DNA from: a virus
DNA: 38,773 bases
Strand: one strand, 5' to 3'
Virus record (IMG/VR): IMGVR_UViG_3300049215_000821
Location: 1 to 38,773 of that record
The translations under genes and the position numbers were made by a program. Numbering within the stretch: position 1 is the first letter of the stretch; each line of letters begins with the position of its first letter. Positions 1 to 38,773 of this stretch are shown one piece after another. The notes under the pieces are model-generated. The model had not been told where the DNA came from and did not search any database. It worked only from the letters and a program-made list of their open reading frames with translations.

Positions 1-56
1 CTTGATAACCTCCATAACCTCCTATGCATCTCGATGCTCTTACCCGGTTCTTGGTT

Positions 57-287
57 TCAGCGGCGCGTCGATGTCATAGTCGGGTGCAGGTCGGTCAGCA
101 ACAGGAACAGCTCCCAGCGCGCGGCATCGATGACGCGCACGCCGCGCTCGTACTCGCTCCACCGCGAGCTGCAGCGCAAGCGGACGCGCGCGGATGCCTC
201 TGCCTGCGAAAGCCCGGACGCCAGGCGGGCACGCTTCACGTCGCGTGCGCTGCGTTTGTCAACGGAAAATGGCTTGTGGTTTTTCAC
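57..287 (-). CDS. small XRE-like helix-turn-helix protein
   Basis: This 76-residue basic protein has a helix-turn-helix-like stretch at residues 14-60, with LASGLSQAEASARVR followed by SRWSEYERG. That pattern is typical of XRE/Cro-type DNA-binding proteins. It is the last gene of the leftward accessory operon. It starts at GTG (287), which overlaps the TGA of the upstream gene (GTGA), and a strong AAGGAGA lies about 5 nt upstream. It may be a small regulator, but its target is unknown. The DNA-binding call is a motif reading; a repressor role is inference only. Confidence 0.75.
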   Translation of the reverse strand: MKNHKPFSVDKRSARDVKRARLASGLSQAEASARVRLRCSSRWSEYERGVRVIDAARWELFLLLTDLHPTMTSTRR

Positions 288-769
288 TGCGACTCTCCTT
301 GACCTCGCAAATGGCGGACGATCCAGTCCCGCATGTGCTGCCAGCGCCTGTGGCGGGCATCGGCACGCACAACGCGCATGGATCCCCGGTATTCAGCGGG
401 ACGCAGCGGGCCAGGAATTTCGACCCAATCGTAGTCATATGGAAAACTCTCGTCGTTTTCCCACATGATCTCGCGAGCCATTGCCTCGGAGATGTCAAAG
501 GTGCCGGCAAGGCGCTCCCAATCCTCCGAATCGATCGACGAGAGATCTAGACCTCGCGCGTGACCGACGACTCCGAGAGTGCAAAACTCCCCGTCCGTCT
601 CCAGCTCACCAGTCGTCAGCGTCTTTTCCGGCATTGCATCGAGCGCGGCGAGAGCCTCACGCAAGAATGCCTGCCCTCGCTTGCCTCTGATTGCCGAGGC
701 GACTGCGCCTCGCCACCGAATGAGCGACCAGGTGTTGTCGCCATCTTCACTGTATCCGCTGCGGCTCAT
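284..769 (-). CDS. conserved phage protein of unknown function
   Basis: The 161-residue protein begins MSRSGYSEDGD and contains the block RWRGAVASAIRGKRGQAFL followed by an acidic middle (residues about 55-110). I recognise this arrangement from hypothetical proteins of many proteobacterial phages, but no function is known to me. The start at 769 is chosen because its ATG overlaps the TGA of the upstream gene (ATGA); longer upstream reading in this frame overlaps that gene and is arginine-rich shadow sequence. No membrane segment or catalytic motif is visible. Co-transcription with the HTH gene downstream is likely. Confidence 0.8.
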   Translation of the reverse strand: MSRSGYSEDGDNTWSLIRWRGAVASAIRGKRGQAFLREALAALDAMPEKTLTTGELETDGEFCTLGVVGHARGLDLSSIDSEDWERLAGTFDISEAMAREIMWENDESFPYDYDWVEIPGPLRPAEYRGSMRVVRADARHRRWQHMRDWIVRHLRGQGESQ

Positions 770-1323
770 GGCTGATCTCCCTGCGCTGCCGGTGCGCGCT
801 CGGCGGCGCGGTCCAGGCGTTCGATTTCTGCGAGGATCAGCGCGCCAGCTTTGACGAGATTGCGACGGCGGTCGCTCGGCTTCCACCACTCCTTTGCCCA
901 CGGCCAATACGCAGAAGGCGAGCCGTCCGACATCTGCATGTCATGCCCGCCAGCGTGCAGCGCATAGACGCCAGCAGCATCCGCCATCTCGCCGCCGCTA
1001 TGCTCGTCGTCGTGCTCCGGCGTCCAGCCCTCGTGCAACACTTGGCGAGCGCGCTCGGCGAGCAGGTCCCGCGCTGCGTCCGTTGCAGTAGCTTGCGAAA
1101 GGCCGTCTCGAATAGCTCGGCGCTTGCCTTCATCGATACCTTCGAGATACGCGGATTTTTCTTCCGGAGTGCGAGGGCGCAGTTCGTCTGAATATTGAAT
1201 GTACTGCCCCTGCGAGCGTCCCGCATTGTTGCCAGCGTTCCACCCGGCGACGAACCAGTCTTCACGCGTCCAGTGCTGCGTCGAGGTGAGTGCGCGAAAT
1301 GCGCGTTGCTGTTGGTCGTTCAT
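766..1323 (-). CDS. phage accessory protein of unknown function
   Basis: This is a 185-residue soluble protein. Residues about 80-175 (AARDLLAERARQVLHEGW, then HDDEHSGGEMADAAGVYA and YWPWAKEWWKPSDRRRNL, ending in AEIERLDRA) match a block common in hypothetical phage proteins, where it is often the C-terminal module of otherwise variable proteins. The ATG at 1323 has GGAG about 9 nt upstream. The gene sits between the DUF932 gene and the 161-residue gene in one leftward unit driven by promoter A. Function is not known. Confidence 0.8.
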   Translation of the reverse strand: MNDQQQRAFRALTSTQHWTREDWFVAGWNAGNNAGRSQGQYIQYSDELRPRTPEEKSAYLEGIDEGKRRAIRDGLSQATATDAARDLLAERARQVLHEGWTPEHDDEHSGGEMADAAGVYALHAGGHDMQMSDGSPSAYWPWAKEWWKPSDRRRNLVKAGALILAEIERLDRAAERAPAAQGDQP

Positions 1324-1385
1324 GATGCTTGCTCCAGTTCCGGCAGCGGCAACCGGCCTGCGTATTTGGGGATAAGCGCGACCGT

Positions 1386-2003
1386 CTAGGCGATGCCACC
1401 GCCGAGCGCCGCCTTCACCTGCACCGGATCGAAGTTCGTGTTGTGCGGGATGGTGATGTTCGGGTTCTTGCGCGCCTCACGCTCGGCCATAGCCAACGTG
1501 TTCGCGCAGACCACGCGCACCGTCGTGAACTGCGCAGTGGTGGCGAGCGTGCCGTCGCACGACGTCGCCAGCAGCAGATAGCCACCCACCAGATCGTTGC
1601 CGACCACACGCGCGGTCTTGCCGATCTCGGCCAGCGCCCAAATCCGGCGACCGCCGCGCAGCGCGCCTGCGGTGTGGATATTGAAGCCGCCAGCGCCGAC
1701 CAGGTCGCGGAAGAATTCGAGCACGTCGTGCGGCTGCACCACCTTGTAGCGAGCGCTCACGACCGACAGCGGTGCGTTCGTGTCGCCGCGATACAGCACG
1801 TGCTTCTCGTCGAAGTTGTGCATCGCGCCGTTCATGTACTGCACCGGTGCGCGCTCGATCTTCCAATCCAGGCCGGCCGCGCGTTGCCATTCCTCGATGG
1901 TGGCGTTCGGGTCGACTTGCTGGCCCAGGCCGTGCCAGGGGGTTGCGCCGATGAATGCCATTTCAGCGGTGCCGTTCGCGCGGATGGAAAGTTCGTGTGC
2001 CAT
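1386..2003 (-). CDS. DUF932 phage/plasmid-like protein, apparently C-terminally shortened
   Basis: The 205-residue product carries the DUF932 (TIGR03299-type) signature: MAHELSIRANGTAEMAF, TPWHGLGQQV, the Y+VVQPHDVLEFFRDLV region and TTVRVVCANTLAMA. These proteins are common on phages and plasmids; their biochemical role is not established. The ATG at 2003 has AAGGAG about 10 nt upstream and fits the family start. Members usually run to roughly 300 residues, but this one stops at TAG (1386-1388) just after VKAALGGGIA, where others continue. The same frame then stays open for 21 codons to a TGA that overlaps the next gene's ATG, suggesting a deletion or premature stop. Confidence 0.85.
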   Translation of the reverse strand: MAHELSIRANGTAEMAFIGATPWHGLGQQVDPNATIEEWQRAAGLDWKIERAPVQYMNGAMHNFDEKHVLYRGDTNAPLSVVSARYKVVQPHDVLEFFRDLVGAGGFNIHTAGALRGGRRIWALAEIGKTARVVGNDLVGGYLLLATSCDGTLATTAQFTTVRVVCANTLAMAEREARKNPNITIPHNTNFDPVQVKAALGGGIA

Positions 2004-2073
2004 TTGGGTTTGCTCCTTGGTTGCGTTGAGTGTTTCGGTGGGTCGGTAGCGCATTGCGTTAACCGATGGCAGA

Positions 2074-2129
2074 ACTGTAGACACTATGCGCAACGGAGTG
2101 AAGCGCTACTTCTAGAGTGTTTCCTCTAA
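2074..2129 (-). promoter_or_regulatory. promoter A with upstream 18-bp palindrome
   Basis: Read leftward, a palindrome TTAGAG-GAAACA-CTCTAG (2112-2129) is followed after 9 bp by a -35-like TTCACT (2097-2102). A 17-bp spacer and the -10-like TACAGT (2074-2079) come next. Promoters B, C and D have the same order and spacing. It faces the DUF932 gene and its three downstream genes. The palindrome lies upstream of the -35 box, which suits an activator site better than a blocking operator; that is inference. Confidence 0.72.
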
Positions 2130-2130
2130 A

Positions 2131-2889
2131 TCAGGCGCGCAGGGATTTCTTCGGGAACACGCGCAGGCCGGGGATGTTGGTGTTGGCCTTCAGGCTGCGC
2201 ACGTACTGCCGCACCGCCGTGGTATCGAGCGTCAGCAGGTTCGACAGCTCCGGGTGCGCGGCGATGTGCTTGATGATCGACGGCATATCGACGACCTCGA
2301 AATCCCACGTCTCGGACGTGGAAACGCCCTTGACCTTCGGCGCCACAGACGCGATGACAGGCGCCGTCAGCACCTGGGCGGTGGTGGCCAGCGTTGCGGC
2401 CGTCGCGGCGTGCTCTGCGGCACGTGCGGCGGCCAGCGGGTCGTTCGTCTCGGCGGCCTTCGCAGCGGCTTCCTCGGCGCGCTTGCGCTCGGCCTCGGCT
2501 TGCTCTGCCAAACGGCGCCGTTCTTCTGCAGCGGCCGCCTCGGCCTTGCGCCGTTCCTCCGCAGCGATGCGCTCCTGTTCCTCGGAGTAGGCGAGCATCT
2601 TGCGCTTGAGCGCTTGCTCTGCTCGTGCCAGCAGATCAGCCGGACCACGGAACAGATCGTTCACGGCCTTCAGTGCCGCGTTGATCGGCTTCGTGATGCT
2701 CGTGCGCTGTTCCTCCAGCTTGTCGGCGCGGGCCTTGATCGCCTTGAGTTCGTCAGCAGCGAGCTGGTAGGTCTCGGGCGAGTCGACCACGAACGTTTCG
2801 ACGAGCTGCAGCGCGGACTGCGCGCGCTGCGTGACGAGAGCGGCGTCGGGAATCGACAGGGATGCGATGGGTGCGAGGATGTCAGACAC
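2131..2889 (-). CDS. coiled-coil phage protein next to recombination genes
   Basis: The 252-residue product has a long charged helical region (about residues 40-165) rich in A, E, K and R, with EERRKAEAAAAEERRRLAEQ at its core. A compact C-terminal domain follows (WDFEVVDMPSIIKHIAAHP, then VRQYVRSLKAN and IPGLRVFPKK). Proteins of this shape are often encoded next to phage recombinases and exonucleases, but I know no demonstrated function. It starts at GTG (2889), overlapping the exonuclease stop by 8 bp, so the two are translationally coupled. The coiled coil is seen; a role in recombination is inferred from position. Confidence 0.8.
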   Translation of the reverse strand: MSDILAPIASLSIPDAALVTQRAQSALQLVETFVVDSPETYQLAADELKAIKARADKLEEQRTSITKPINAALKAVNDLFRGPADLLARAEQALKRKMLAYSEEQERIAAEERRKAEAAAAEERRRLAEQAEAERKRAEEAAAKAAETNDPLAAARAAEHAATAATLATTAQVLTAPVIASVAPKVKGVSTSETWDFEVVDMPSIIKHIAAHPELSNLLTLDTTAVRQYVRSLKANTNIPGLRVFPKKSLRA

Positions 2890-3451
2890 GTTTGCTTTCC
2901 TTGAAGTGGTGAATGGTGAGACAGGACAGGAACACCGGCCAGTCGCGCGGATCGTTCAGCTCGACCAGGCGATACGTGCCGTCCGGCTTAAGCTGAATCG
3001 CGGCGCGCCGCGTGATGGTCGGGTCCCCCTTCGCGGCCAGATACGCGGCCGTCTGCGGCCCGACGCTCGGATACACGCCGACGCTGGTCTTGATGTCGCC
3101 GAGCCACTTGGCGCCGTCAAACCCCAGCACGCGGTCGAGCTGGCCAGCGTAGCGATGCAGCGGGTGGTAGACGTATTCTTCGGTCGACAGCACCTGAACG
3201 CGCTTCTCGACGCGGAAACGGCGCCAGGCGTCCAGGTACGGCGCGACGTCGTCCTCGACACTCGCCTCGTCCAGATCGTCGGCGTCATCCAGCTCGCAAG
3301 CCAGGTGCACACGCGTGCCGAGATCTGCCTTCGCCGCAAGCACGTCAGGCGGCACGTGCCACAGCTCGTCGAGCGGCTCCAGCACACCTGTCACTCCTGG
3401 AACGGGCGCCCCGTTCCAGAAGTAGCGGTGATTCTCGTCGCGGGTCAGCAT
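2882..3451 (-). CDS. PD-(D/E)XK phage exonuclease (RecB/Cas4-like fold)
   Basis: This 189-residue protein carries the RecB-family nuclease motifs in order: GTRVH (about residue 46), AGQLDRVLGF (metal-binding Asp near 106), LGDIKTS (Asp and Lys near 119-121) and PQTAAYLA (the Q motif near 133). Such enzymes resect DNA ends for phage recombination, usually with a single-strand annealing protein. The gene directly upstream is the candidate partner. The ATG at 3451 overlaps that gene's stop (TGATG); an in-frame GTG sits one codon earlier. Fold assignment is confident; exonuclease polarity is not deducible. Confidence 0.87.
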   Translation of the reverse strand: MLTRDENHRYFWNGAPVPGVTGVLEPLDELWHVPPDVLAAKADLGTRVHLACELDDADDLDEASVEDDVAPYLDAWRRFRVEKRVQVLSTEEYVYHPLHRYAGQLDRVLGFDGAKWLGDIKTSVGVYPSVGPQTAAYLAAKGDPTITRRAAIQLKPDGTYRLVELNDPRDWPVFLSCLTIHHFKESKRV

Positions 3452-4566
3452 CACGAAGCGGCGATCAGCTCGACCTTGATCTCTTCGAACTGCGCGGTCG
3501 TCATCTCGCCCAGCTCGCGCACCTGGAAGCGCGTGAGCACCGTCGATTCCTCGATGCCCACCTGCTTGATCTTCTGCTTCAGGTAATTCACCTGGCCATC
3601 AGTGATGCGCGGATCGCCGCCCATCGGCAGGTCACCTTGCTTCTGGTCGGCGGCGGCCGGAGCCGGTGCCGGCGCGGGCGTTTCCGTTTTCGCGGCAGCG
3701 GGCGCAGGGGACGGTGCGGGCGCGTTGTCCTTGGCCTCCGACTTGCGGCGCGGGCCGGTGGTGGTCTTCGGCGTGGCCTCGCCTTCCTCGGGCACTTCGA
3801 ACCAATCGCCAGGCACGCTCATGTCGTCGCGCAGGCTTGCATAGATGCGCTTGAGCATCACCACCTGCGCCGGCTGGATTGCATCGAGACGGCGCTGGAT
3901 GCGCTTCTCGATCATCTCCTTCGTGACGCCGAACTCGCCGAATGCGTCGACCATCTTCTGCATGGCCTCGGGGCTTGTGTCGGCCTTCGAGCGCAGCGTG
4001 AGCGCGGCTTGATCCATCGCCGCATCGGTGACGTCGCCGGGGACCAGCGCCAGGATGCACGCGCGCGTGCGACGCTGCGCCTGGTTGGCGATCAGCTCGT
4101 AGATGTCGCGCTCGTCCGTGAGCTTGTAGCCGCCGCGCTTCGTGTCGCGCCAGTGGCGCACGATGAACTGCATCGGCTTGCGGTTGCGATTCTCCAGGTC
4201 GACAGCGAATGCCTCGACCTCGCTGAACGGCACGCCGTCCGGGCCGATGCCGCGCGACAGCTCGCGGAATCCAAACTCCATGTTGCCCCACTGCTGCGCG
4301 ATCGCCTCGGCAGCGCGGATGCTCGGCCCGATGATGTCGGTGCCACCGCGAGCGAACTGATACTGCGCCTTCTCGGCCAGCGTCGGCCGCGTGAAAGCGT
4401 TGAGAATCCTGTCCATGTTCGCCACGACGTTGCGCGGGAATTGCTGCGCCATCAGGTACTTGACCTGCATCTCGGCGAGTTCGCGGTGTTGGCTCTGGCG
4501 AGCGCCTGCGGTTTCCGTTGCGGCGACTTCCGATGGGCCGAACGGCGATGCGACGAGCTGATTCAT
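3451..4566 (-). CDS. candidate phage single-strand DNA annealing/recombination protein
   Basis: The 371-residue protein has a conserved N-terminal half including QYQFARGGTDIIGPSIRAAE, WGNMEFGFREL, SEVEAFAVDLENRNR, FIVRHWRDTK and ANQAQRRTRACILALVPGDV. An Ala/Pro linker (about 275-320) follows. The C-terminal helical domain (ITDGQVNYLKQKIKQVGIEE to the end) resembles the small tail found on phage Sak/ERF-type annealing proteins. It does not show clear RecT, ERF or Red-beta signatures to my reading, so the role rests on position beside the nuclease and this tail. GAAGGAC precedes the ATG at 4566. It could be a distinct annealing-protein family. Confidence 0.6.
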   Translation of the reverse strand: MNQLVASPFGPSEVAATETAGARQSQHRELAEMQVKYLMAQQFPRNVVANMDRILNAFTRPTLAEKAQYQFARGGTDIIGPSIRAAEAIAQQWGNMEFGFRELSRGIGPDGVPFSEVEAFAVDLENRNRKPMQFIVRHWRDTKRGGYKLTDERDIYELIANQAQRRTRACILALVPGDVTDAAMDQAALTLRSKADTSPEAMQKMVDAFGEFGVTKEMIEKRIQRRLDAIQPAQVVMLKRIYASLRDDMSVPGDWFEVPEEGEATPKTTTGPRRKSEAKDNAPAPSPAPAAAKTETPAPAPAPAAADQKQGDLPMGGDPRITDGQVNYLKQKIKQVGIEESTVLTRFQVRELGEMTTAQFEEIKVELIAAS

Positions 4567-4577
4567 GGGTGTCCTTC

Positions 4578-4763
4578 TCATAGGTGGGTTGTGAGATACA
4601 GCACGTAGCAGCACATGCCGCCGAACCACGCCAATCCCCCGAGCACGATCCAGTCGAGCCAGTGCGTGGCTTTTTTCTCGCGCGTCCAGTTTGCGTAGGG
4701 ACCGAACGCTTCCTGCAGCGTGCGCGGCGCGCGGTAATCGTGCGGGCGATGATGGTTCAGCAT
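4578..4763 (-). CDS. small single-pass membrane protein
   Basis: This is a 61-residue protein with a polar N-terminus (MLNHHRPHDYRAP) and one clear hydrophobic segment near the C-terminus (WIVLGGLAWFGGMCCYVLYL). The ATG at 4763 has CGGAGAG about 7 nt upstream. A longer in-frame start at 4898 lies inside the structured leader and has no ribosome binding site, so I reject it. It lies between that leader and the candidate annealing-protein gene. Function unknown. Confidence 0.6.
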   Translation of the reverse strand: MLNHHRPHDYRAPRTLQEAFGPYANWTREKKATHWLDWIVLGGLAWFGGMCCYVLYLTTHL

Positions 4764-4781
4764 GTCTGCTCTCCGGGTTGT

Positions 4782-4908
4782 GCTCTCACGGATGTCGCCC
4801 GTCCATCCGGGGCGGCGCCACCGCGTCCTTGCCTCATGTCTCGGCGGGCGAAACACGCAAAGAAGCGAGTGGTGGCTACCGCGTCCGGCGAGCGACATCA
4901 GTGAGAGC
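4782..4908 (-). ncRNA. structured leader, domain 2 (17-bp stem)
   Basis: GCTCTCACGGATGTCGC at 4782-4798 pairs with 4892-4908 over 17 positions with a single mismatch, enclosing 93 nt. Inside, GCCACC (4817-4822) can pair with GGTGGC (4871-4876). The 3' arm in the leftward transcript ends about 20 nt before the ATG of the 61-residue membrane protein, so it would form part of that gene's leader. No convincing ORF fills the region. The strand is assigned from the flanking operon. Function unknown. Confidence 0.5.
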
Positions 4909-4920
4909 GCTCATTGCCTC

Positions 4921-5040
4921 TGGTGGGTCCGCTGGGCCTGGCTACCAAGGAGAATGCCTTTCCAGGGATACGGGCTATTTATCGTCGCCGCGCCGACGTG
5001 ACACAGCGGACCCACCATAGGCCCCTCTCGCGAGGGTGGT
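4921..5040 (-). ncRNA. structured leader, domain 1 (14-bp stem closing two hairpins, plus GNRA hairpin)
   Basis: TGGTGGGTCCGCTG (4921-4934) is perfectly complementary to 5004-5017, closing a 69-nt interior. That interior holds two hairpins: CCTGG/CCAGG (4937-4941 with 4962-4966, extended by AAGG/CCTT) and CGTCG/CGACG (4983-4987 with 4994-4998). In the leftward transcript it is preceded by CCCTC-GCGA-GAGGG (5023-5036), a hairpin with a GNRA-type loop. The outer ACCA/TGGT pairing of that hairpin would compete with the 14-bp stem. This resembles a regulatory RNA, antitermination element or DNA-level site; no known family is recognised. Confidence 0.55.
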
Positions 5041-5061
5041 TCAGTGGCGTCGGTTAAGCGA

Positions 5062-5265
5062 TCAGCACCAGACAGCGCGGTCCATCGCAGCCAGTTCGCG
5101 GCCAGCGTTGATAGCAGCATCCGCTTGGTTCGTCGTCTTCAGGACGGCCGGCCCTTCGATTGCAATGCTGCGTGCGCCGTAGCCGCGCACAACGTGCATG
5201 AAGTAAGCCACTCGGCAAGCGTTCGCGCCGTACTTGTTCACCGCGCGATTGGTGTTGTTGGTCAT
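5062..5265 (-). CDS. small phage protein, first gene of the promoter B operon
   Basis: The 67-residue product begins MTNNTNRAVNKYGANACRV and continues with AYFMHVVRGYGARSIAIEGP, ending in AINAGRELAAMDRAVWC. It has no membrane segment and no motif I can name. GAGGGG lies about 8 nt before the ATG at 5265, deciding the start over a longer in-frame version that would cross promoter B. It is the first gene after the promoter, followed by the structured untranslated region. Function unknown. Confidence 0.65.
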   Translation of the reverse strand: MTNNTNRAVNKYGANACRVAYFMHVVRGYGARSIAIEGPAVLKTTNQADAAINAGRELAAMDRAVWC

Positions 5266-5317
5266 CGTGATCCCCTCATCAGTAGCGCGCTTCTGCGCGC
5301 TCGTCGTTGAAGGCTGA

Positions 5318-5372
5318 ACTGTAGCGCATGGCGCCAGACATGAAAGCAAAACTGTTAGAGTGTTTGCTCTAA
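5318..5372 (-). promoter_or_regulatory. promoter B with upstream 18-bp palindrome
   Basis: In leftward reading: palindrome TTAGAG-CAAACA-CTCTAA (5355-5372), 9 bp, -35-like TTTCAT (5340-5345), 16 bp, -10-like TACAGT (5318-5323) within CTACAGTTCAG. It drives the 67-residue gene, the structured leader and the recombination genes. Architecture matches promoters A, C and D. Confidence 0.75.
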
Positions 5373-5391
5373 TTCGCATTCACACCACTCG

Positions 5392-5413
5392 GGGAAAGCG
5401 CCGGGCAGGCGCT
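5392..5413 (-). terminator. hairpin terminator at the end of the late operon
   Basis: On the minus strand, six nucleotides after the holin stop, AGCGCC-TGCCC-GGCGCT forms a GC-rich 6-bp stem followed by TTTCCCC. The U-tract is short, so strength is uncertain. Its place between the last lysis gene and promoter B fits a terminator closing the long late transcript. Confidence 0.5.
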
Positions 5414-5418
5414 GATGA

Positions 5419-6042
5419 TTACTGCCCGGCTGCGGCCTTGATGGCCTGGGACACGGACTGCTGCAGGGCGTCGGTCTTTTTCTCGCTGCCCATGCTGCCG
5501 CCGTAGATGAAGTTGATGACGGTCTGCGCGTTCGCCGCGACGTAGCCAACGATCGAGCCGACCAGGCCCGAGATCGCGGCCACCACCGACACGTCGTGGA
5601 TGGTGATGCCACCGTTGAGCAGCGTCCAGCAACCCCACAGCACGGCGCCCATGATGAGCGTGAACGTGGCCAGCACACCGGCCGCGATCCACCACACCGC
5701 CTCGCGCGCCGCGTTGGTCGAGCGCGCCGATGCGCGATCATCGGCCGCGATCTTCTCGCGCGCGGTGGCCTCGGCTTCCAGCTTCTCGATGTGGTCGTAG
5801 CCGAGCTTCTGCATCGTCTCCTGATGCGCGAGATCTGCTTGCTTCAGCGCGAGCAGTTGCTCGGGCGTGGCGCCCTTGATGGCGGCCATCACATCGTCCG
5901 GCGTGGCCTTGTCCGGCGACAGACCGAGCACACCGCAGATCGCCTGCACCGCGACGCCAGCCACCGGCGTGCCCAGCGTGCCGGCGATCCATGGCGCGAT
6001 GGTGCCGATCGCGCCTTTGACCTTCCCCCAATCGATATCCAT
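5419..6042 (-). CDS. holin of the 3-TM gene-transfer-agent type
   Basis: The 207-residue protein matches the layout of the GTA_holin_3TM family (PF11351). There is a hydrophobic N-terminal segment (about 10-40), a charged middle with ATPEQLLALKQADLAHQETM and a DDRASAR motif, then two strong membrane segments (WWIAAGVLATFTLIMGAVLW and VSVVAAISGLVGSIVGYVAA). Such proteins are thought to form inner-membrane lesions that let the endolysin out. AAGGAGG precedes the ATG at 6042. It is the last late gene, close to the endolysin; no Rz/Rz1 pair is evident nearby. Confidence 0.82.
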   Translation of the reverse strand: MDIDWGKVKGAIGTIAPWIAGTLGTPVAGVAVQAICGVLGLSPDKATPDDVMAAIKGATPEQLLALKQADLAHQETMQKLGYDHIEKLEAEATAREKIAADDRASARSTNAAREAVWWIAAGVLATFTLIMGAVLWGCWTLLNGGITIHDVSVVAAISGLVGSIVGYVAANAQTVINFIYGGSMGSEKKTDALQQSVSQAIKAAAGQ

Positions 6043-6065
6043 GGTCCGCCTCCTTGGCGCGGGCA

Positions 6066-6269
6066 CTACTTGCTGGCCTTTCCCAGCTCGAACGCGGCTG
6101 CGACCTTTTCCTCCACGCTGCGCGCGTCCTTCACGATCGCGTCGAGTGCCGCGTGCACGGCGCCCAGGTGGAACGCTGCCTCGATGCGTTCTTCGACGCT
6201 GCGCGCGTCAGCTTTCAGAGCGGCGATCTCGGCCTCGGCCTTTTGCTTCAATTCATCGATGAACGACAT
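6066..6269 (-). CDS. small helical protein with an internal duplication, lysis region
   Basis: This 67-residue, probably all-helical protein contains two near-copies of one unit: DARSVEERIEAAFHLG (residues about 21-36) and DARSVEEKVAAAFELG (about 48-63). The spacing is 27 residues, and the ACGCTGCGCGCGTC stretch is repeated at DNA level. It sits between the holin and the 98-residue membrane protein genes, so it may act in or modulate lysis, but nothing in its sequence shows that. It has no signal peptide or membrane segment. Confidence 0.7.
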   Translation of the reverse strand: MSFIDELKQKAEAEIAALKADARSVEERIEAAFHLGAVHAALDAIVKDARSVEEKVAAAFELGKASK

Positions 6270-6278
6270 GCAAGCCTC

Positions 6279-6575
6279 CTATTTTTGGCGATCCTGCTTC
6301 AGATCGAGCTTGTCCTCGATCCTGCGCATGCTGGTGACGGTTTCGTTTTGCAAGGCCCGAATGGCGCCGAAAATCTTGTCGCCCATGTCTTTGAAATCGG
6401 CCTTGCTCGTGTAATTGGATGGGAGTTCGACGCGGAGATCAGACAGCGACTTTGCCATCGCCTCGTCTGATTTTTCGAGTCGGTCCATCCTCTGAAAAAG
6501 TGCCTTCATAAGCCACCCGAGGGTTCCTGCGACCAGCAAGATCGCAATGTTCAGAGCTGTTTGCAGTTCCACCAC
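6279..6575 (-). CDS. N-terminally anchored membrane protein of the lysis module
   Basis: The 98-residue product has a single N-terminal membrane helix (ALNIAILLVAGTLGWLMKAL) followed by a charged, coiled-coil-like region (MDRLEKSDEAMAKSLSDLRV to RRIEDKLDLKQ). Similar small anchored proteins are encoded next to many phage endolysins; they may be accessory holins or spanin-like, but no family is certain. It starts at GTG (6575; a second GTG is the next codon) with a G-rich GGGGGGT upstream. It follows the endolysin gene by 37 bp. Confidence 0.75.
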   Translation of the reverse strand: MVELQTALNIAILLVAGTLGWLMKALFQRMDRLEKSDEAMAKSLSDLRVELPSNYTSKADFKDMGDKIFGAIRALQNETVTSMRRIEDKLDLKQDRQK

Positions 6576-6612
6576 TTGACCCCCCGGTCAGACTTCACGT
6601 TTGTTATCCCGT

Positions 6613-7149
6613 TCACTGGCAACGCTGGAGAATCCAGCCATAGGCGTACTTCCGATTTGTCGGATTCTTCTCGGCCAGGCCGATGTAGTACGTCGCTTGA
6701 AAACCGTTCAGTGCGCGGAGCATCACGGCCTCGCCGTTCTCGCCGCGCTGATCGAGAAAGCCCTTCAGGGCTGCGCAAGATGCAGGCCCGAGCTTGCCGT
6801 CAACGGTGAGCGATGCCCCCATCACGTTGATCGTCCGCTGCAGCCACTGCGATACCGTGCCAGGACCAACGTTCACGCCCGCATCCGCGAGCTTGGCCGC
6901 GATCTTGGGGGAGATCGCGTCGACCGAAGCGAAACCCGGCTGGGTCCAATATCGCGCCGTGTAAATCGTGCGCGCTTCGTCCTCGGTGAGATTCTTCACG
7001 TCGTCCGGCGTGACCGGCTTTCCTCGCCAGCTATGCAGCGTTTCGAGCGTGATGCCGAACTTGGTCGGGCCACCAGGATCATCCGGGTCGTTGGTATATT
7101 CACGACCCTCGTTCTGGATGATCTGGTCAAGGATGGCGTCGAAAGACAT
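6613..7149 (-). CDS. endolysin, glycoside hydrolase family 108 type
   Basis: The 178-residue enzyme begins MSFDAILDQIIQNEGREY. It has the GH108 catalytic region with Glu14 in NEGREY and DPDDPGGPTKFGIT, and a C-terminal peptidoglycan-binding-3-like half (VNVGPGTVSQWLQR, DGKLGPASCAAL). It should cleave peptidoglycan glycan strands once the holin opens the membrane. There is no signal peptide, as expected for a holin-dependent enzyme. The start is uncertain: ATG at 7149 fits the family N-terminus, but ATG 7179 and GTG 7191 are in frame and none has a good ribosome binding site. Confidence 0.9.
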   Translation of the reverse strand: MSFDAILDQIIQNEGREYTNDPDDPGGPTKFGITLETLHSWRGKPVTPDDVKNLTEDEARTIYTARYWTQPGFASVDAISPKIAAKLADAGVNVGPGTVSQWLQRTINVMGASLTVDGKLGPASCAALKGFLDQRGENGEAVMLRALNGFQATYYIGLAEKNPTNRKYAYGWILQRCQ

Positions 7150-7218
7150 GGATGTGGTGGGTTGTTTGGCTGTGCGCATTTTCTCGCGCACAGCGCTGGT
7201 GTTAAAGGAAAGTCTCGC

Positions 7219-7923
7219 TTAACTGTGGTTCGGGAATGGCGCGCTCGGCGGCGTGAAATTAGCGGTGTAGCGCGCAAAGCCCTTGGTGATCCGCAGCTCG
7301 TCGATCTGACCGTAAAACTGGCCCGCGCCGTCGCGGCTTGCCTGTGCGATGCGAATCGGATTCGCCGTGTAGTTGTTCGAATCGGTATAAGGCGAGCCGG
7401 TCGCAACGCCATCGATGTAAAGCGTGGTTGTGCCACTGGCACGGCACACCGCGACGTGCGACCAGGTATTCAGCGCGAGAGCCGATGCTCCTGTAATTCG
7501 ATCGCCGCCGTTCACAAAGAACCGCACCTGCTGGTCGGACCCGATATAGATCGTCGGAACAATCCCTTCCGCGCCGGACGGACGGAAGTCGATCACGATG
7601 GAGAATGAGCCGGGCGCGGACGTCATGCGCACGAATTGCTCGATCGTAAAATCGCCAGTGCCGAATTGCAGCGTCGCATCAGATGCGAGACCCAGGTAAT
7701 CGGTGGTCGACGAAAAGATCGCCGAGCCGGTGCCGAACTTAGGGTTCGATGTCGTGACATGCGCCCCGCCTGTCGCGTTGACCGTCTTGGCGTAGCTACT
7801 CGAATCAGGAAACGACGTGCTCCCATTCGAGCCATCGCAGTGCAGCAGCAGCGAGACGGCCGAGAAATGCGGATCACCGCCACCGCCGCCGCCAGAGCGA
7901 TACCGCGTAAAAGCCGGGATCAT
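7219..7923 (-). CDS. tail tip/fibre protein with LamG (concanavalin-like) domain
   Basis: The 234-residue protein has a Gly-rich N-terminal linker (RYRSGGGGGGDPHF) followed by a LamG/jelly-roll lectin domain: LLLHCDGSNGSTSFPDSS, GDFTIEQFVRM, LNTWSHVAVCR, TTTLYIDGV and GQIDELRITKGFARY. Such domains in phages bind surface glycans or decorate the tail tip. Its ATG (7923) overlaps the stop of the DUF2793 gene (ATGA), so the two probably work together at the distal tail. The domain is clear; receptor binding is inferred. Confidence 0.85.
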   Translation of the reverse strand: MIPAFTRYRSGGGGGGDPHFSAVSLLLHCDGSNGSTSFPDSSSYAKTVNATGGAHVTTSNPKFGTGSAIFSSTTDYLGLASDATLQFGTGDFTIEQFVRMTSAPGSFSIVIDFRPSGAEGIVPTIYIGSDQQVRFFVNGGDRITGASALALNTWSHVAVCRASGTTTLYIDGVATGSPYTDSNNYTANPIRIAQASRDGAGQFYGQIDELRITKGFARYTANFTPPSAPFPNHS

Positions 7924-25962: not shown

Positions 25963-26017
25963 TTAGAGCATTTGCTCTAACAGTTTCACTTCAATGTTTG
26001 ACGCATTGCGCTAAAGT
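25963..26017 (+). promoter_or_regulatory. promoter C with upstream 18-bp palindrome (rightward)
   Basis: A perfect 8-2-8 palindrome TTAGAGCATTTGCTCTAA (25963-25980) is followed by 9 bp, -35-like TTCAAT (25990-25995), 16 bp and -10-like TAAAGT (26012-26017). It is the only one of the four such promoters pointing right. It drives the two 26-residue peptides and the coiled-coil gene, with the first ATG about 20 nt past the predicted start site. Confidence 0.78.
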
Positions 26018-26415: not shown

Positions 26416-27198
26416 TTACTGGATCACGCCTGCAGCGCGCCATCTGTCCATGGCAGGGTCGAGATAGAACCGAAAGAAGTGTTCGAACGAGATGACGTTC
26501 GGGGCTTGTTCGTAGTCAGGTCGGCAGTGCTTAATTCGCTCGGGGACAACCAAGTTGATCCGCGACCTGAGCATCTCGCCAAGATCGCGCACTGCCACTT
26601 CTTCGTCGATGGTCGCGAGGAAGAAACCCAAACCGCGCGTGCCTTCCGTCACAATCTGTCGCCACCGTTCGCGCAGCGTCCGCTTCACGGTGAAGATGAT
26701 GCAATCCGGTGCGTTGTGATGGAAGTGCTCGATCGATGGCAGGATGAAATCCGGCTGGCCGTTGATGATCGCCTGCGGGGTGAACGGATATTGCAGACGA
26801 CGAAACAGCTCCTTTATCAGATACTCAAAGGTCTTGCCCGCGCGCGGCCTTCGCCCCTGCGTCAGTCCCAAATAGAAGCGATCGAGTGCGTAGAAGTAGC
26901 CGCCGACGAGACGAACACCATCCTCGCCAGTGGATGGATTGCCGACCATCGGCACAAAAACTGCGGCCATGGCCTCCCGACCCGCATCCTTCTCGGACTC
27001 CAGGTAATCGCGGTAGGCATCGATCTGCACCTGCTCAACTAGAGCACTGAAATTGGTCTTGATCCAAGCCGCATCGTTGTCGCGGCCAGCGAGCGCTCTT
27101 GCAACTGCTCTAGTCGCGATCGCTTGACCGGATGTAATCCGGCGATTGAATTCTTCCTTTAACCTTTCCTTTATCTCTTCGTCGGTTGGCGCGCGCAT
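26416..27198 (-). CDS. type II restriction endonuclease, EcoRII-C/PspGI-like (predicted CCWGG)
   Basis: The 260-residue protein has the EcoRII-C type PD-(D/E)XK core: RAGKTFEYLIKELFRRL (Glu about 125), GQPDFILPSIEHF (Asp about 150), then IIFTVKRTLRERWRQI (Lys about 172 and the RERWRQ tract). In EcoRII and relatives this block reads KPDF...P and K-T-x3-RWRQ. It lacks the separate N-terminal effector domain of EcoRII and is close to PspGI in size, so simple type IIP cleavage is likely. It follows the glycosylase gene directly (TGA-ATG). The CCWGG prediction leans on the partner methyltransferase. Row 26461-26520 has 50% GC, against about 63% in the portal gene. Confidence 0.85.
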   Translation of the reverse strand: MRAPTDEEIKERLKEEFNRRITSGQAIATRAVARALAGRDNDAAWIKTNFSALVEQVQIDAYRDYLESEKDAGREAMAAVFVPMVGNPSTGEDGVRLVGGYFYALDRFYLGLTQGRRPRAGKTFEYLIKELFRRLQYPFTPQAIINGQPDFILPSIEHFHHNAPDCIIFTVKRTLRERWRQIVTEGTRGLGFFLATIDEEVAVRDLGEMLRSRINLVVPERIKHCRPDYEQAPNVISFEHFFRFYLDPAMDRWRAAGVIQ

Positions 27199-27888
27199 TC
27201 ACACACTCTTTCGTGTTGCATATAGGCATTTTTCCCGAAGGGGACAAATATCACAGCGCGGTACTGGGGTGCAAATCGAGCGCGTGAAATCGAGTAGCGC
27301 GTAGCCAAACGCGCGCGCATTTCGACTTGGCTGAACCTGTTCTGCCAGTGAGATGAACCACCGCGCTCGTCGCGTCTCCGGTCCGGTCACATGACCGAAG
27401 TAGCGACCGTACAGACGAACGATGTTTGCATCGATCATCCTCGTCGGCTTTCCAAGATGAAGCGTTCTGAACGCCGAGGCCGCGTAGTCACCCACGCCGG
27501 GGAGCGCCTGTAGGCGTCCGATGGTTGTTGGGATATGCCCGCTGCTTTCGGAAAGCGTATTCACCAGGCGCCTGATGATTCTCGCCCGCCATTCCAGGCC
27601 GAGAGGCTGCAGGACACGCTCGACCACTCCAGCGTCTTCGCTCGCGGCCACATTGGGTGCAGGGTATCGCTTGATGAATTCCTGATAGACGGGCACGACC
27701 TGATCCGCACGCGTGCGCTGAAGCATGACCTCGGCGATCAGGCCGTGAAACCGGTTGGTTGTGAAACGCCACGGGAACGGCGCGAAATTCGCGCGTCCCC
27801 ACCGGAAAAGAATCTTGCGGAAAAAGGCTAAACGGCCGCTATCAGGCGGAGTTGCTTCGGGCGCGAGATGGACTCTTGGTGCAGGCAT
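27199..27888 (-). CDS. T:G mismatch DNA glycosylase, Mig.Mth-like (HhH-GPD, iron-sulphur)
   Basis: The 229-residue protein belongs to the endonuclease III/MutY superfamily: FAPFPWRFT (39-41 PWR), [13 protein letters not shown], the helix-hairpin-helix [10 protein letters not shown] (129-138), catalytic Asp153 in [15 protein letters not shown], and a C206-X5-C212-X2-C215-X5-C221 cluster. Tyr135 replaces the lysine of Nth, as in Mig.Mth, the thymine glycosylase encoded beside a cytosine methyltransferase in Methanothermobacter. It would repair T:G mismatches left by deaminated 5-methylcytosine. The first Cys spacing is one shorter than in Nth. Its ATG overlaps the methyltransferase end by 61 bp. 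Confidence 0.87.
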
Positions 27889-28922
27889 TCGACCAAACGC
27901 TTCGCGATCGACTCGATGACTGGAAGGACCACCGAGTTTCCGAATTGCTTGTAGGCTTGCGTGTCCGATACAGGTATCTCGAACGAATCAGGAAACCCCA
28001 TCAACCGAGCGCACTCCCTCGGGGTAAGCCTTCGCGGGGTCTGTCGCGGACCGCGCGGAATCAGTATCTCAGACCCGTCCTTGTAGTAGCGCGCGCTGAG
28101 CGTTCTCGTGACGCCGTCCAGATCGGCCAGACCGAACCCGAAACCATTGCCAGCCGCCTTATGCTTTTCGGCGTAGTCGCGCAGGTATTTCCAGAGATGC
28201 GGCGTCAGCCCATACTTGGACGGCACGTCTGATTCGAGCACGTTCCGCAGCTTCGGATGGAGATCAGGAAATGGGGGGAAAGAAAACGCGCGCGGCTCCC
28301 TGAAGCCGACGATGTAAATGCGCTCTCTATGCTGGGGGACAAGCGACCTAGCATCGATCACGGCGTAGTGCACGTCGTAGTCGAGTTCGCCCTCCAGCGT
28401 CTCCATGATTACTTTGAATGTCCTACCCTTATCGTGATGCTGCAAGTTCTTCACGTTTTCGAGCAGAAACGCAGCGGGGCGCTTCTCTTTGAGAATGCGC
28501 TTGATGTCAAAGAACAAAGTGCCCTGGGTGGGGTCGTCGAAACCGTGAGCGCGGCCCAGAGCATTCTTCTTGGACACTCCTGAGATCGAGAAAGGCTGGC
28601 ATGGAAAGCCCGCGACCAGAATCTCGTGATCTGGTATCTCCGACGCATCGATCTTCGTTATGTCGCCATGAGGCTTGTCGCCGAAATTCGCTTCGTAGGT
28701 TTGCGCGGCGAACCGATTCCATTCCGATGTGAACACGCAGCGGCAGCCAGCGCGCTCAAACGCTGTGCGCGTGCCGCCGATCCCGGCGAAAAGGTCAATG
28801 AATCTCGGGACGTCGCGATTGCCATTGGAGCGTAAATTCCGCGTCTCCAAAGCACGAAGGTGGTTGCCGTTTTTAGTTTTGTTTTGAGGCACTTGGCTCT
28901 CATCTTTTAGCATGGTGGGCAT
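27828..28922 (-). CDS. DNA C5-cytosine methyltransferase, Dcm/M.EcoRII-like (predicted CCWGG)
   Basis: The 364-residue enzyme has all C5-methyltransferase motifs: [10 protein letters not shown] (41-50), [11 protein letters not shown] with catalytic Cys108, ENV (155-157), [11 protein letters not shown] (197-207) and [10 protein letters not shown] (326-335). The recognition domain (about 235-325) contains [44 protein letters not shown] and [13 protein letters not shown], then [15 protein letters not shown]. That is remarkably close to Dcm and M.EcoRII, which methylate the inner C of CCWGG. It is first in its cassette, so protection can precede cutting. No strong ribosome binding site is seen before ATG 28922. 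Confidence 0.94.
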
Positions 28923-28953: not shown

Positions 28954-30828
28954 TTAATCACCTGTGGGAATCCCGGGATTTCGCACACCGCGAATACGTC
29001 TTTGCGCATTGAGCGGCTGCCCGCTTTCCAGCATCTGCTGGAGCAGCCCGAGATCGCGGTACAGGTTCGGATTCACGAACGTCTGCAGCACGAATAGCAG
29101 ACCGAGCGCATACACCTCCAAGTCGAACGCCTCGTTCCGTCCCGTCGATACGTACTCGATCTTCACGGTGCCACGGCGCGGATCCTTCTTCTTGAGCTTC
29201 TTCTCGCTGGTCATCTGGTCGAGATACTGCTCGGGCACCCACACCGGCATGTGCATGTAGCCCGGCCCGGCCTGCTCGATGCGCATCCGCGAAAGCAGCC
29301 GGTCCTTTGCCGCCACAGTGGCGATCCGGTAGAGACGGATGTGCGATCGTTTGGCCGTGGCCTCCATCGCCATGCCAGGACGACTGAGATACTCGGACCC
29401 TTTGAGCGCGACGACACGCTCGGACTGGCGCGGCTGCACGTAGTCGTACACCGCGTCCGCCTGGTCGCCCGAGTCGACGCCGAAGATCGCAACACGCATG
29501 CTGCGGTTGGTGCCCGACACCGGGAAATCCCGGCGACGCCACTCATCCAGGCGCATCCAGACCGACGCGTCACTGCTCGGGTCGCCCCAAAAAATCTCGT
29601 AGTCCACGAGCCACGATTCCTCGCCCGCGCCGAATGCAACGAGCTTGGCCTCGACGCGATCGCCCTGCACGTCGGCCGAGCCGACCAGAACCGCCGCCGC
29701 GTGCGGCACCACGCCGCGATCGTACTTCTCCAGGCGCCGCGCCAGCACATTCGCGTTCAGCGCCAAGCCCTGCTCTTCCCACGTCTCGGCGAGCTTCGTG
29801 TTTGTCCACGCCTTGAGCTTCTCGGGTACGTCCTTCGACTTCAGGAAGTCGGACGCCATCTCGGCCCACGAATAAAACGGCGAGTAGAGTGCGTTCAGGT
29901 GATAACCGACCGTCTCGCCGTCGCTGGGCGCCGTCGCCTGCCACTTGCCAGCGGCCAGCATCTGGCTCTTGAACCGTTCCTCAATGAGCACGCCGCATTC
30001 TTCGCACAGATAGCGCGCGGTTTTCGGCAGGTGGCGGCCGTTCGCGTCGCGCTCCCAGCGCAAACGCGGGGTTCCGTCCTCATCCTTCCAGCGTAGGTGT
30101 TGCATGTGGCCGCAGTGCGGGCACGGCACGAAGTAGTAGCGCCTATCGGAGCGCATGAACTCCCGCTCGATCGCGGAGAAACCTTTGATCGTCGGCGTGC
30201 TGGTGAGCAGGATTTTCTTGCGGCTGCGGAACGTCACCGTCCGCTGTGCCGCCAGATCGAGAGGGTCGCCTTCGCCGTCGACGTCGTGCGGCCAGCGATC
30301 GATCTCGTCGCCGTACAGGTAGCGGATCGGCATCGACGCGAGCGAGCTGGCGCTGTTGGCGCCCGACAGGATGAGCATGCCGCCGTCGAATTCCTTGACG
30401 AACATGTTGTTCGCCGAGTCGCGCGACGCGGGCTTCGCAAACCGCTCGGCCAGCGCGGGCGTCTCGCGGATCATCGGGTCGATCCGCTGCAGCACGTTCT
30501 TCTTCAGGTCGTTCAGCGTCGGCATCACGAACAGCGTCGGACCCTGCGCGTGGTGCGCGATGTAGCCGAGCCAGTTGTTCGCGCCCTCGGTCTTCGAAGT
30601 TTGCGACGCCCACATCAGCACGACTCGCTGCGTCGGCGACTGTGGCGACAGCATCTCCATCGGCTCACGCTGGTACGGCACGCGTTCGGTACGCCAGCGG
30701 CCAGGCTCGGCCGCCGCCTTGCCGGACAGGATGCGGTGCTCATCCGCCCACTGCCACACGTTCAGGTCTGGCGGCGGCTCCCAGCCAGCGATCCACGCTT
30801 CCTGGACGATGTGCTCTGCGGTTTGCAT
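28954..30828 (-). CDS. terminase large subunit, GpA family
   Basis: The 624-residue protein matches lambda gpA-type terminases (PF05876). It has DLNVWQWADEHRILSG, a Walker-like WASQTSKTEG (73-82), GPTLFVMPT, LYGDEIDRWPHD (Walker B region), KILLTSTPTIKG, CPHCGHMQHL and CEECG zinc-type pairs, and a nuclease half with VGSADVQGDRVEAKLVAFG and GVDSGDQADAVYDYV. It packages DNA into the prohead and cuts concatemers. Its start overlaps the TerS stop (TGATG). A GpA-type enzyme suggests cos-like packaging, but I could not identify a cos site. Confidence 0.95.
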   Translation of the reverse strand: MQTAEHIVQEAWIAGWEPPPDLNVWQWADEHRILSGKAAAEPGRWRTERVPYQREPMEMLSPQSPTQRVVLMWASQTSKTEGANNWLGYIAHHAQGPTLFVMPTLNDLKKNVLQRIDPMIRETPALAERFAKPASRDSANNMFVKEFDGGMLILSGANSASSLASMPIRYLYGDEIDRWPHDVDGEGDPLDLAAQRTVTFRSRKKILLTSTPTIKGFSAIEREFMRSDRRYYFVPCPHCGHMQHLRWKDEDGTPRLRWERDANGRHLPKTARYLCEECGVLIEERFKSQMLAAGKWQATAPSDGETVGYHLNALYSPFYSWAEMASDFLKSKDVPEKLKAWTNTKLAETWEEQGLALNANVLARRLEKYDRGVVPHAAAVLVGSADVQGDRVEAKLVAFGAGEESWLVDYEIFWGDPSSDASVWMRLDEWRRRDFPVSGTNRSMRVAIFGVDSGDQADAVYDYVQPRQSERVVALKGSEYLSRPGMAMEATAKRSHIRLYRIATVAAKDRLLSRMRIEQAGPGYMHMPVWVPEQYLDQMTSEKKLKKKDPRRGTVKIEYVSTGRNEAFDLEVYALGLLFVLQTFVNPNLYRDLGLLQQMLESGQPLNAQRRIRGVRNPGIPTGD

Positions 30829-31442
30829 CAATCGGCGCTGCGTTCGGGTGGCTTGACGTTGGCAATCTCGGCGCACACGCGCCGGACTTCATCGGTGAGC
30901 AGACGGTGCACCTCGTGCTGGTCCGGGTTCCCCACCACCAGCGGCGCGATGCGGTCGGGCAGCGCCATCAGCATGTCGCGCGCCTTGCGCCCGGCGTTGA
31001 ACATGGCCACGCGCACGGCATCGGCCGGCAGCAGCTTCCCGGCCTTTTCCTCGTAGTCGAGTTTTGCCAGGCGCGCCTGGTACGCCTCGCGGATTGCGCG
31101 GCTTTGCGCGTACGTCGGACCGGAACTTCCACCAGGTTCGGCGGACGCGGGCGGCGCAGACGGTTGCGGGGTGGGTGCTGGCGGCGCGGCGCCTTGGCGC
31201 GGCTCGTACGCGGCCGTCGCGGTCTCCTTTCGACGCTTCGGCTCGCCTGAGATGCGATTCAGCGGCTTCGCCTGGTCGGTGTTGGCCGCCCATTCACGAT
31301 CGGCCAGCTCCGGGTCCGCGATCTTCGGCTTGCCAGCGGGGTCATGCGCGATCGACTTGACCAGGCGCCCCGATTGGATCGCCTTCAGCACCGCGACGTG
31401 CGAGATTCCGCGCTCCTGCGCGTACTTGCGGATCGAGATCAT
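30828..31442 (-). CDS. terminase small subunit-like DNA-binding protein
   Basis: The 204-residue protein opens with a winged-helix/HTH region (ISIRKYAQERGISHVAVLKA then IQSGRLVKSI), as in Nu1-like small terminases. It has a Pro/Ala-rich linker (about 80-105) and a C-terminal helical part (YEEKAGKLLPADAVRVAMFN, ARDMLMALPDRIAPLVVG) typical of DUF1441-type small terminase subunits. It would bind the packaging site and recruit the GpA enzyme encoded immediately downstream. The ATG overlaps the methyltransferase stop (ATGA). Confidence 0.83.
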   Translation of the reverse strand: MISIRKYAQERGISHVAVLKAIQSGRLVKSIAHDPAGKPKIADPELADREWAANTDQAKPLNRISGEPKRRKETATAAYEPRQGAAPPAPTPQPSAPPASAEPGGSSGPTYAQSRAIREAYQARLAKLDYEEKAGKLLPADAVRVAMFNAGRKARDMLMALPDRIAPLVVGNPDQHEVHRLLTDEVRRVCAEIANVKPPERSAD

Positions 31443-38007: not shown

Positions 38008-38063
38008 ACTGTAGGGCTTTGCGGGGAAAGAGTTAAGGCAGGCTTTTAGAGCAAAGGCTATAA
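38008..38063 (-). promoter_or_regulatory. promoter D with upstream 18-bp palindrome
   Basis: In leftward reading: TTATAG-CCTTTG-CTCTAA (38046-38063), 9 bp, -35-like TTAACT (38031-38036), 17 bp, -10-like TACAGT (38008-38013) within CTACAGTTCAG. It heads the early operon of regulators and replication genes. The left palindrome arm has one change from the consensus. Confidence 0.72.
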
Positions 38064-38151: not shown

Positions 38152-38343
38152 TCACTCCAATGAAACCAGCGGGTTGCGACCATGCGCGGAAGTTTCGATT
38201 CCTACCGCGCTCACCATCTTCTTTATATTCAACATCTCCACGTTGCCAACCAGCAGTTTGGGCACATCTGGGCACAACTGAGCGGCCACCTGGCGCAGCG
38301 GAGCGCGCAGCGCCTCCGTCTGCATGTGGTCGTACACCTTCAT
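38152..38343 (-). pseudogene. possible C-terminal remnant of a tyrosine integrase
   Basis: The minus-strand frame reads MKVYDHMQTEALRAPLRQVA and then AQLCPDVPKLLVGN before running through the tRNA-like core as MVSAVGIETS to TGA. The first block resembles the end of tyrosine recombinases, where a conserved Tyr is followed by a helix, and the gene direction toward a tRNA-like site is typical of int-attP. Nothing upstream in any minus frame continues it past about 38440, so the catalytic domain is missing. The identification is weak and relies on context. Confidence 0.33.
38194..38216 (+). other. attP-like core matching a tRNA 3' end
   Basis: The plus strand reads TTCGATTCCTACCGC and then GCTCACCA. 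This is a T-loop, T-stem 3' strand, acceptor strand (CGCGCTC), discriminator A and CCA of a tRNA. Upstream bases do not complete the T stem and no 5' acceptor strand lies within 80 bp, so it is not an intact tRNA gene. Such 3'-end copies are the usual cores of temperate-phage attachment sites. Confidence 0.6.
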
Positions 38344-38773
38344 CGACACGCCCGACGCGCTGCTCCTACAGCAGACGGCGACCACGCGCGTGTGGCTCGG
38401 CATCTCAAGTCTCAGCGGAACGAGCCTGCAGACCGACAACGTCGGAACCTCAGGCGGTCAGTTCGTCGGTTTCCGCTACTCGACGCACGCGGGAGACACG
38501 AACTGGCAGGCGGTCACCGCCGATGGCAGTGCACAGACCGTGACCGACACGGGAGTCGCGGCGGACACGAACATGCACGTGTTCAGGGTCGCGCAGGTGT
38601 CAGGCACGGGGTACGAGTTCTACATCGACGGAAATCTCGTCGCGACGAACACCACCCACCTACCCAGTTCAGGCGTCGGTTGCTTCGACATCGCGCAGCT
38701 GGACGCGCCTGGCGCTTCGTCCGGCACACCGGGCTTCGTGTGTTCCTATCTCTACTGGTGGGCGGCGTTCTAG
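38324..38773 (+). CDS. virion protein fragment, concanavalin-like, N-terminus missing
   Basis: The 149-residue reading (TATTRVWLGISSLSGTSLQT, FVGFRYSTHAGDTNWQAVTA, TNMHVFRVAQVSG, GYEFYIDGNLVATNTTHLP) is a jelly-roll, lectin-like fold of the kind found in phage structural proteins and appendages. Codon use is clearly coding. There is no ribosome binding site before ATG 38324 and the frame is open back to 38282, so the N-terminal part of the gene seems lost. It ends on the last base of the window. It is the only large plus-strand gene in the genome. Confidence 0.65.
   Translation: MWSYTFIDTPDALLLQQTATTRVWLGISSLSGTSLQTDNVGTSGGQFVGFRYSTHAGDTNWQAVTADGSAQTVTDTGVAADTNMHVFRVAQVSGTGYEFYIDGNLVATNTTHLPSSGVGCFDIAQLDAPGASSGTPGFVCSYLYWWAAF

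Follow-up and report, generated by a model that had tools for sequence, protein, structure and literature searches.

A large structured untranslated region between two small genes of a RecT-encoding phage

We found that a 298-nt region of a 38.8-kb virus record (4764-5061, minus strand) has the potential to form a real and stable RNA fold. Gene and fold predictions support this potential and place it, untranslated, in a probable early operon. In the record's dicodon gene map, no stretch free of predicted genes is longer. (This ranking counts 27202-27888 as a gene, from its match to HhH-GPD.) A first-pass annotation of the DNA had noticed the structure, and our analysis confirms the observation and finds it to be stronger than first described. 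The element, a putative phage-borne structured intercistronic RNA, belongs to no Rfam family and fails the testable features of put, nut, and the Pistol ribozyme. At a guess, the element most likely serves to control or to cut the operon's message. Tentatively, we prefer to see it as a cis-acting intercistronic RNA at which RNase III-like processing would divide the RecT operon from the first small gene. In what follows, the window is the single virus record that we analyzed, with all of its 38,773 bases.

We predicted genes with a dicodon gene finder, which was trained on the long open reading frames of all of the loci that we fetched, and we annotated the neighboring genes with PHROGs and Pfam. 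The gap sits between two coding genes that share one strand, at the junction of the late (lysis) module and the recombination module. The gene order on the minus strand is a 67-aa gene, the structured region, a membrane protein gene, recT, and an exonuclease gene. The 67-aa protein (5062..5265; dicodon score 20) is the first small gene. It belongs to no known family and had no matches in the PHROG and Pfam searches, and it has distant relatives in loci L010-L012 (51-52% by tblastn). The second small gene (4578..4763; dicodon score 20.6) encodes a probable membrane protein of 61 aa, whose RTLQEAFGPY motif is common to other phages and whose relatives are in loci L013-L021. It is followed, still on the minus strand, by a RecT-like single-strand annealing protein (3451..4566; phrog_3657, E = 1e-79), which matches records titled "RecT-like ssDNA binding protein", by a phage exonuclease (2882..3454; phrog_298, E = 1e-22), and by a further gene of the recombination module (2131..2889; phrog_10477 "exonuclease", E = 8e-28).

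The reading frames that overlap the stems have dicodon scores of -6.6, 2.9, -17.5, -8.5, and 1.6, as compared to about 20 for each of the flanking small genes. We rejected a protein-coding reading of 4764-5061 because of these low scores (-17.5 to 2.9), so the earlier statement that no convincing gene covers the stems holds.

We then examined the predicted fold, which has three parts. Nearest to the first small gene is a GNRA hairpin (5023..5036, minus strand; CCCUC-GCGA-GAGGG), which is formed with a pair probability of 1.0 and is just where the first-pass annotation put it. Hairpin I (4917..5021, minus strand) has a 3-bp helix and then a perfect 14-bp stem around about 69 nt. This 14-bp stem (5017-5004 with 4934-4921) had been reported before and we recovered it exactly. 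Hairpin II (4782..4908, minus strand) is a 51-bp rod. Its base has 8 bp, one mismatch (1x1), and another 11 bp, and short bulged helices follow; the rod includes 5 G-U pairs besides the bulges. A stem of 17 positions with one mismatch (4908-4892 with 4798-4782) had been noticed here. It is present, but it is just the base of the longer rod. The pair probabilities for the 14-bp stem, the base of the rod, and the GNRA hairpin are all near 1. Two hairpins had also been proposed inside the 14-bp stem. One of these (4998-4983) is fairly stable, with a pair probability of about 0.75, but the other (the CCUGG/CCAGG hairpin at 4966-4937) is weak, at about 0.14.

Hairpin II has a predicted energy of -79.7 kcal/mol (z = -7.3), and its minimum free energy structure is identical to its centroid. 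The z-scores are -3.2 for hairpin I alone and -4.6 for the entire region. In a genome-wide scan of the minus strand in segments of 150 nt, 4774-4923 ranked as the second most structured of 773. (By z-score, the most structured segment of the record is 7074-7223 on the minus strand, at -7.2, which is at the start of the endolysin gene and has a hairpin around 7164-7200.) Furthermore, the window contains one perfect Watson-Crick stem of at least 14 bp with a loop of up to 150 nt, versus 0.03 expected from shuffled sequences.

The first-pass annotation suggested that alternative folds would compete with the 14-bp stem. These alternatives turned out to be energetically remote: a fold in which the 3' arm of the stem is kept single has an energy of -37.0 instead of -58.1, or about 21 kcal/mol worse. 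Because freeing this arm is so costly, switching between folds is unlikely at equilibrium. The plus and minus strands fold with nearly equal stability (-149.5 and -150.1), so the sequence leaves the strand undecided, and even the type of nucleic acid.

We also found a probable promoter for the operon. A palindrome, TTAGAG-N6-CTCTAA (5355..5372), is probably a regulator site, and the putative -10 region, CTACAGTTCAGCC (5312..5324, minus strand), is about 31 nt downstream of it. If one mismatch is allowed, the palindrome has four sites in the window (5355-5372, 2112-2129, 25963-25980, and 38046-38063), versus 0.01 expected. Perfect copies of CTACAGTTCAGCC are found only at 5312, 2068, and 38002, where the spacing from a palindrome is similar in all three cases, and a perfect CTACAGTTCNGCC lies about 31 nt downstream of three of the palindromes on the minus strand. 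The fourth palindrome goes with a variant, CTAAAGTTCAGTC, at 26011 on the plus strand. Across the four sites (three on the minus strand and one on the plus strand), the -10 regions read CTA(C/A)AGTTC. If TACAGT is the -10 box, then the palindromes are centered near -53, a location typical of activator sites (P2 Ogr has such sites). The four sites seem to define one class of phage promoter, in which a regulator site is centered near -53, and they are reminiscent of activator-dependent promoters.

Given this promoter, transcription probably starts near 5311. The structured region begins about 250 nt past this probable start, and we infer that it is probably transcribed. The first-pass annotation had placed a structured untranslated region early in a recombination-operon transcript, after the first small gene, and this placement agrees with our map of a probable operon. 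None of the three remaining promoters of this class has a comparable gap downstream in the record's gene map. No intrinsic terminators were predicted on the minus strand of 1-7500, so the element itself is not a terminator.

We searched for relatives of the element in several ways. A scan of the whole window against Rfam 15 gave no matches at or above the gathering threshold, which bears out the earlier remark that no family was recognized. At the DNA level, the element had no homologs in the phage and plasmid collections. Among 399 Burkholderiales genomes and 401 Roseateles-family genomes there were only short chance matches, the best of which falls inside a coding gene (lpxD-like). A search via the neighboring genes (RecT, both small genes, a holin-like gene, the exonuclease, and the phrog_10477 gene), with RecT relatives taken from IMG/VR and GTDB, did not find a related element at any of them. 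Covariance models for the two hairpins (R1 and R2), which were built from this single sequence, match only the element itself within the window. Beyond the window they gave only weak matches, with the best in L023 (E = 0.08). (L023 is the closest RecT relative, at 81%. Its match to the hairpin II model, at 1175-1267 on the minus strand, is a long hairpin with tandem G-U pairs, and it belongs to an early gene's leader on the opposite strand.) One genome without homologs cannot show that there is selection for structure. Judged by the refuting condition of the first-pass annotation, these searches failed to turn up relatives, which differs from showing that relatives have lost the element. We also considered known kinds of elements. 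No tRNA or tmRNA was found, and we rejected the ends of a transposon (MITE) because no direct target-site duplication flanks the 14-bp repeat.

If the element is a processing site, then transcription from near 5311 would proceed through the first small gene, the GNRA hairpin, hairpin I, and the rod of hairpin II. A host nuclease of the RNase III type would cut the rod as double-stranded RNA, so that the message for the membrane protein, RecT, and the exonuclease would begin with just a short leader. Hairpin I and the GNRA hairpin would serve as a stabilizing cap at the 3' end of the message from the first small gene. We infer both the cut and its importance from the fold and its setting. RNase III needs roughly two helical turns, as in the early sites of T7 and the leader of lambda N. 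A site for this enzyme calls for a nearly unbroken helix of about 20 bp or more. The base of the rod (8 bp, the 1x1 mismatch, and 11 bp, with pair probabilities of about 1.0) fits this length and approaches the required two turns, which supports processing. Other features argue for processing as well: the gap is noncoding and has coding genes of one strand on both sides, there is a single well-defined rod whose end (4782) is about 19 nt ahead of the next gene's start codon (4763), the promoter upstream, on the same strand, belongs to a class that is used four times, and the minus strand has no predicted terminator here.

Like the RNase III stems of T7 and lambda N, the element places a long paired stem between or before early genes on what would be one transcript. 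Unlike those stems, it is much larger, it comes with another hairpin besides the rod and with the GNRA hairpin, and its cleavage is a prediction. A simple processing site would not require anything as elaborate as hairpin I together with the GNRA hairpin, which counts against processing. The failure to find any homolog, and hence any covariation, also counts against it, as does the nearly equal fold stability of the two strands.

A serious rival, although a somewhat unlikely one in our judgment, is that the element acts in the manner of put or nut: the nascent RNA would bind RNA polymerase, either alone or with host Nus factors, and the polymerase would then resist pausing and termination along the remainder of the operon. 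HK022 putR lies about 270 nt from the point where its transcript starts (PMC9378689), and the element, about 250 nt past a putative promoter and after the first small gene, would have a similar early-operon position. The two adjacent stem-loops are also the general layout of putL and putR. The RNA of put suppresses termination and binds to the zinc-binding domain of beta'. But put is about 70 nt and comes as a pair of related copies, each behind one of the genome's early promoters, while hairpins I and II span 240 nt (4782-5021; the element is about 240-255 nt), include a 51-bp rod, and are found in a single copy. We rejected membership in HK022 put based on size and copy number, so put membership, at which the first-pass annotation had hinted, is not supported; neither Rfam nor sequence comparison found a relative of put in the window. 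A lambda-type nut site (boxA/boxB) was rejected as well, as there is no YGCTCTTTAA-like site in 4764-5061 with up to two mismatches and we did not recognize an N-like gene, though N proteins are poorly conserved. Also, no terminator that would need read-through is predicted downstream on the minus strand.

Structured leaders at the start of some other RecT operons would seem to favor antitermination. Strongly structured gaps are found upstream of RecT in L056 (z = -6.7), L030 (z = -4.9, with the boxA-like CGCTCTTTAACA), L036 (z = -6.7), L031 (z = -6.0), L111, and a few others. However, z-scores below -4.5 were found for 7 of 76 gaps upstream of RecT versus 7 of 96 other gaps in the same phages, in a comparison that is somewhat conservative because some of the control gaps separate converging genes and would be expected to hold terminators. 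As the control gaps are structured just as often, most of the support for a class of structured leaders in RecT phages is removed, and we rejected this class. The leaders do not have any word of 8 or more bases that is common to at least three of them. The leader of L056/L002 (a RecT relative from IMG/VR) is like the element in that it is noncoding and upstream of a RecT operon. It has a 15-bp perfect stem around about 107 nt, just downstream of operator-like repeats. But it has no sequence similarity to the element and its inner fold is different, so the analogy is one of position only. (In L030, the leader of a Marinobacterium RecT operon has, at 3980-4130, a 12-bp hairpin, GGGCAGCAACC/GGTTGCTGCCC, followed directly by CGCTCTTTAACA. 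This closely resembles the boxA found in rRNA leaders and may mark an antitermination site.)

Other explanations seem less probable. The element might be a phage RNA that acts in trans, as a small RNA, a decoy, or a protein-binding RNA, and that would be transcribed from the early promoter and perhaps excised from the operon message. Its compact, extremely stable, and self-contained fold of about 255 nt is consistent with this, and two larger phages (L151 and L152) also have strongly structured, gene-poor stretches behind a similar promoter. But we did not find any relationship between the element and those sequences, there is no promoter or terminator of its own directly at the element, and nothing in Rfam matches it, so we consider a trans-acting role to be unlikely. 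(L151 and L152 are phage contigs of about 111-113 kb. In both of them, at 1471-1945 and 489-985 respectively, this promoter layout leads into a strongly folded region of about 300-450 nt that is partly conserved and shows few traces of a gene. These regions contain repeats, TCCC(T/A)AT(C/G)AGTGTCGG, and may be phage noncoding RNAs.) It is similarly unlikely that the inverted repeats act as DNA, in a replication origin, a single-strand initiation site, a cruciform, or a packaging site. Since both strands fold about equally well, fold stability does not favor an RNA role over DNA palindromes. The location in the largest noncoding gap, where the lysis and recombination modules meet, would also suit a DNA site, and a terminase of the lambda gpA type suggests that the genome may have a cos site somewhere. 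On the other hand, the region has no iterons (just one imperfect pair of 12-mers), the small terminase gene (30828-31442) is 26 kb away, and a DNA cruciform would not need the rod's 5 G-U pairs and bulges. The origin or packaging role that was suggested in the first-pass annotation is neither supported nor contradicted here. Finally, the rod ends so close to the start codon at 4763 (about 19 nt) that the element might be a leader that governs how the 61-aa membrane protein is translated, whether as a riboswitch, a thermometer, or a protein-binding site. This seems doubtful indeed, as the main helices are extremely stable (pair probabilities of about 1.0), the alternative fold that we tested is about 21 kcal/mol worse, and no known riboswitch matched.

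A ribozyme was also considered. The hairpin CGUCG-GCGCGG-CGACG and the AUAAAUA that follows it resemble the Pistol ribozyme (RF02679) and its linker. The match (4961-4998, minus strand) scores 21.5 bits, below the gathering threshold of 34.5, with E = 0.07-0.17. We rejected the Pistol ribozyme because the alignment covers just P1 and the linker and misses P2, P3, and the pseudoknot. The match is probably due to chance.

Few phage RNAs are known to have RNA polymerase or their own message as a target, and to our knowledge put is hardly found outside of the lambdoid phages. If the element is a processing stem, then it is ordinary; if it suppresses termination without a protein, then it would be a second put, unrelated to the first. 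It is quite improbable that the element represents a new class of large phage RNA with its own promoter class and without a sequence relative in Rfam, whether for protein-independent antitermination or for action in trans. The element is compact (255 nt) and has a defined probable promoter and three clear helices, so a reporter could readily test it.

We also noticed two other features of the window. On the minus strand, at 26416-28922, are genes for a cytosine DNA methyltransferase, an HhH-GPD protein, and an EcoRII-C-type restriction enzyme in a row. These form a restriction-modification set between the terminase and the structural genes, and the HhH-GPD protein is perhaps a mismatch-repair glycosylase. 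At the right end (38324-38773), there is a 149-aa open reading frame with a good coding score on the plus strand, although nearly all of the other genes are on the minus strand. Its product reads like a carbohydrate-binding or fiber-like protein.
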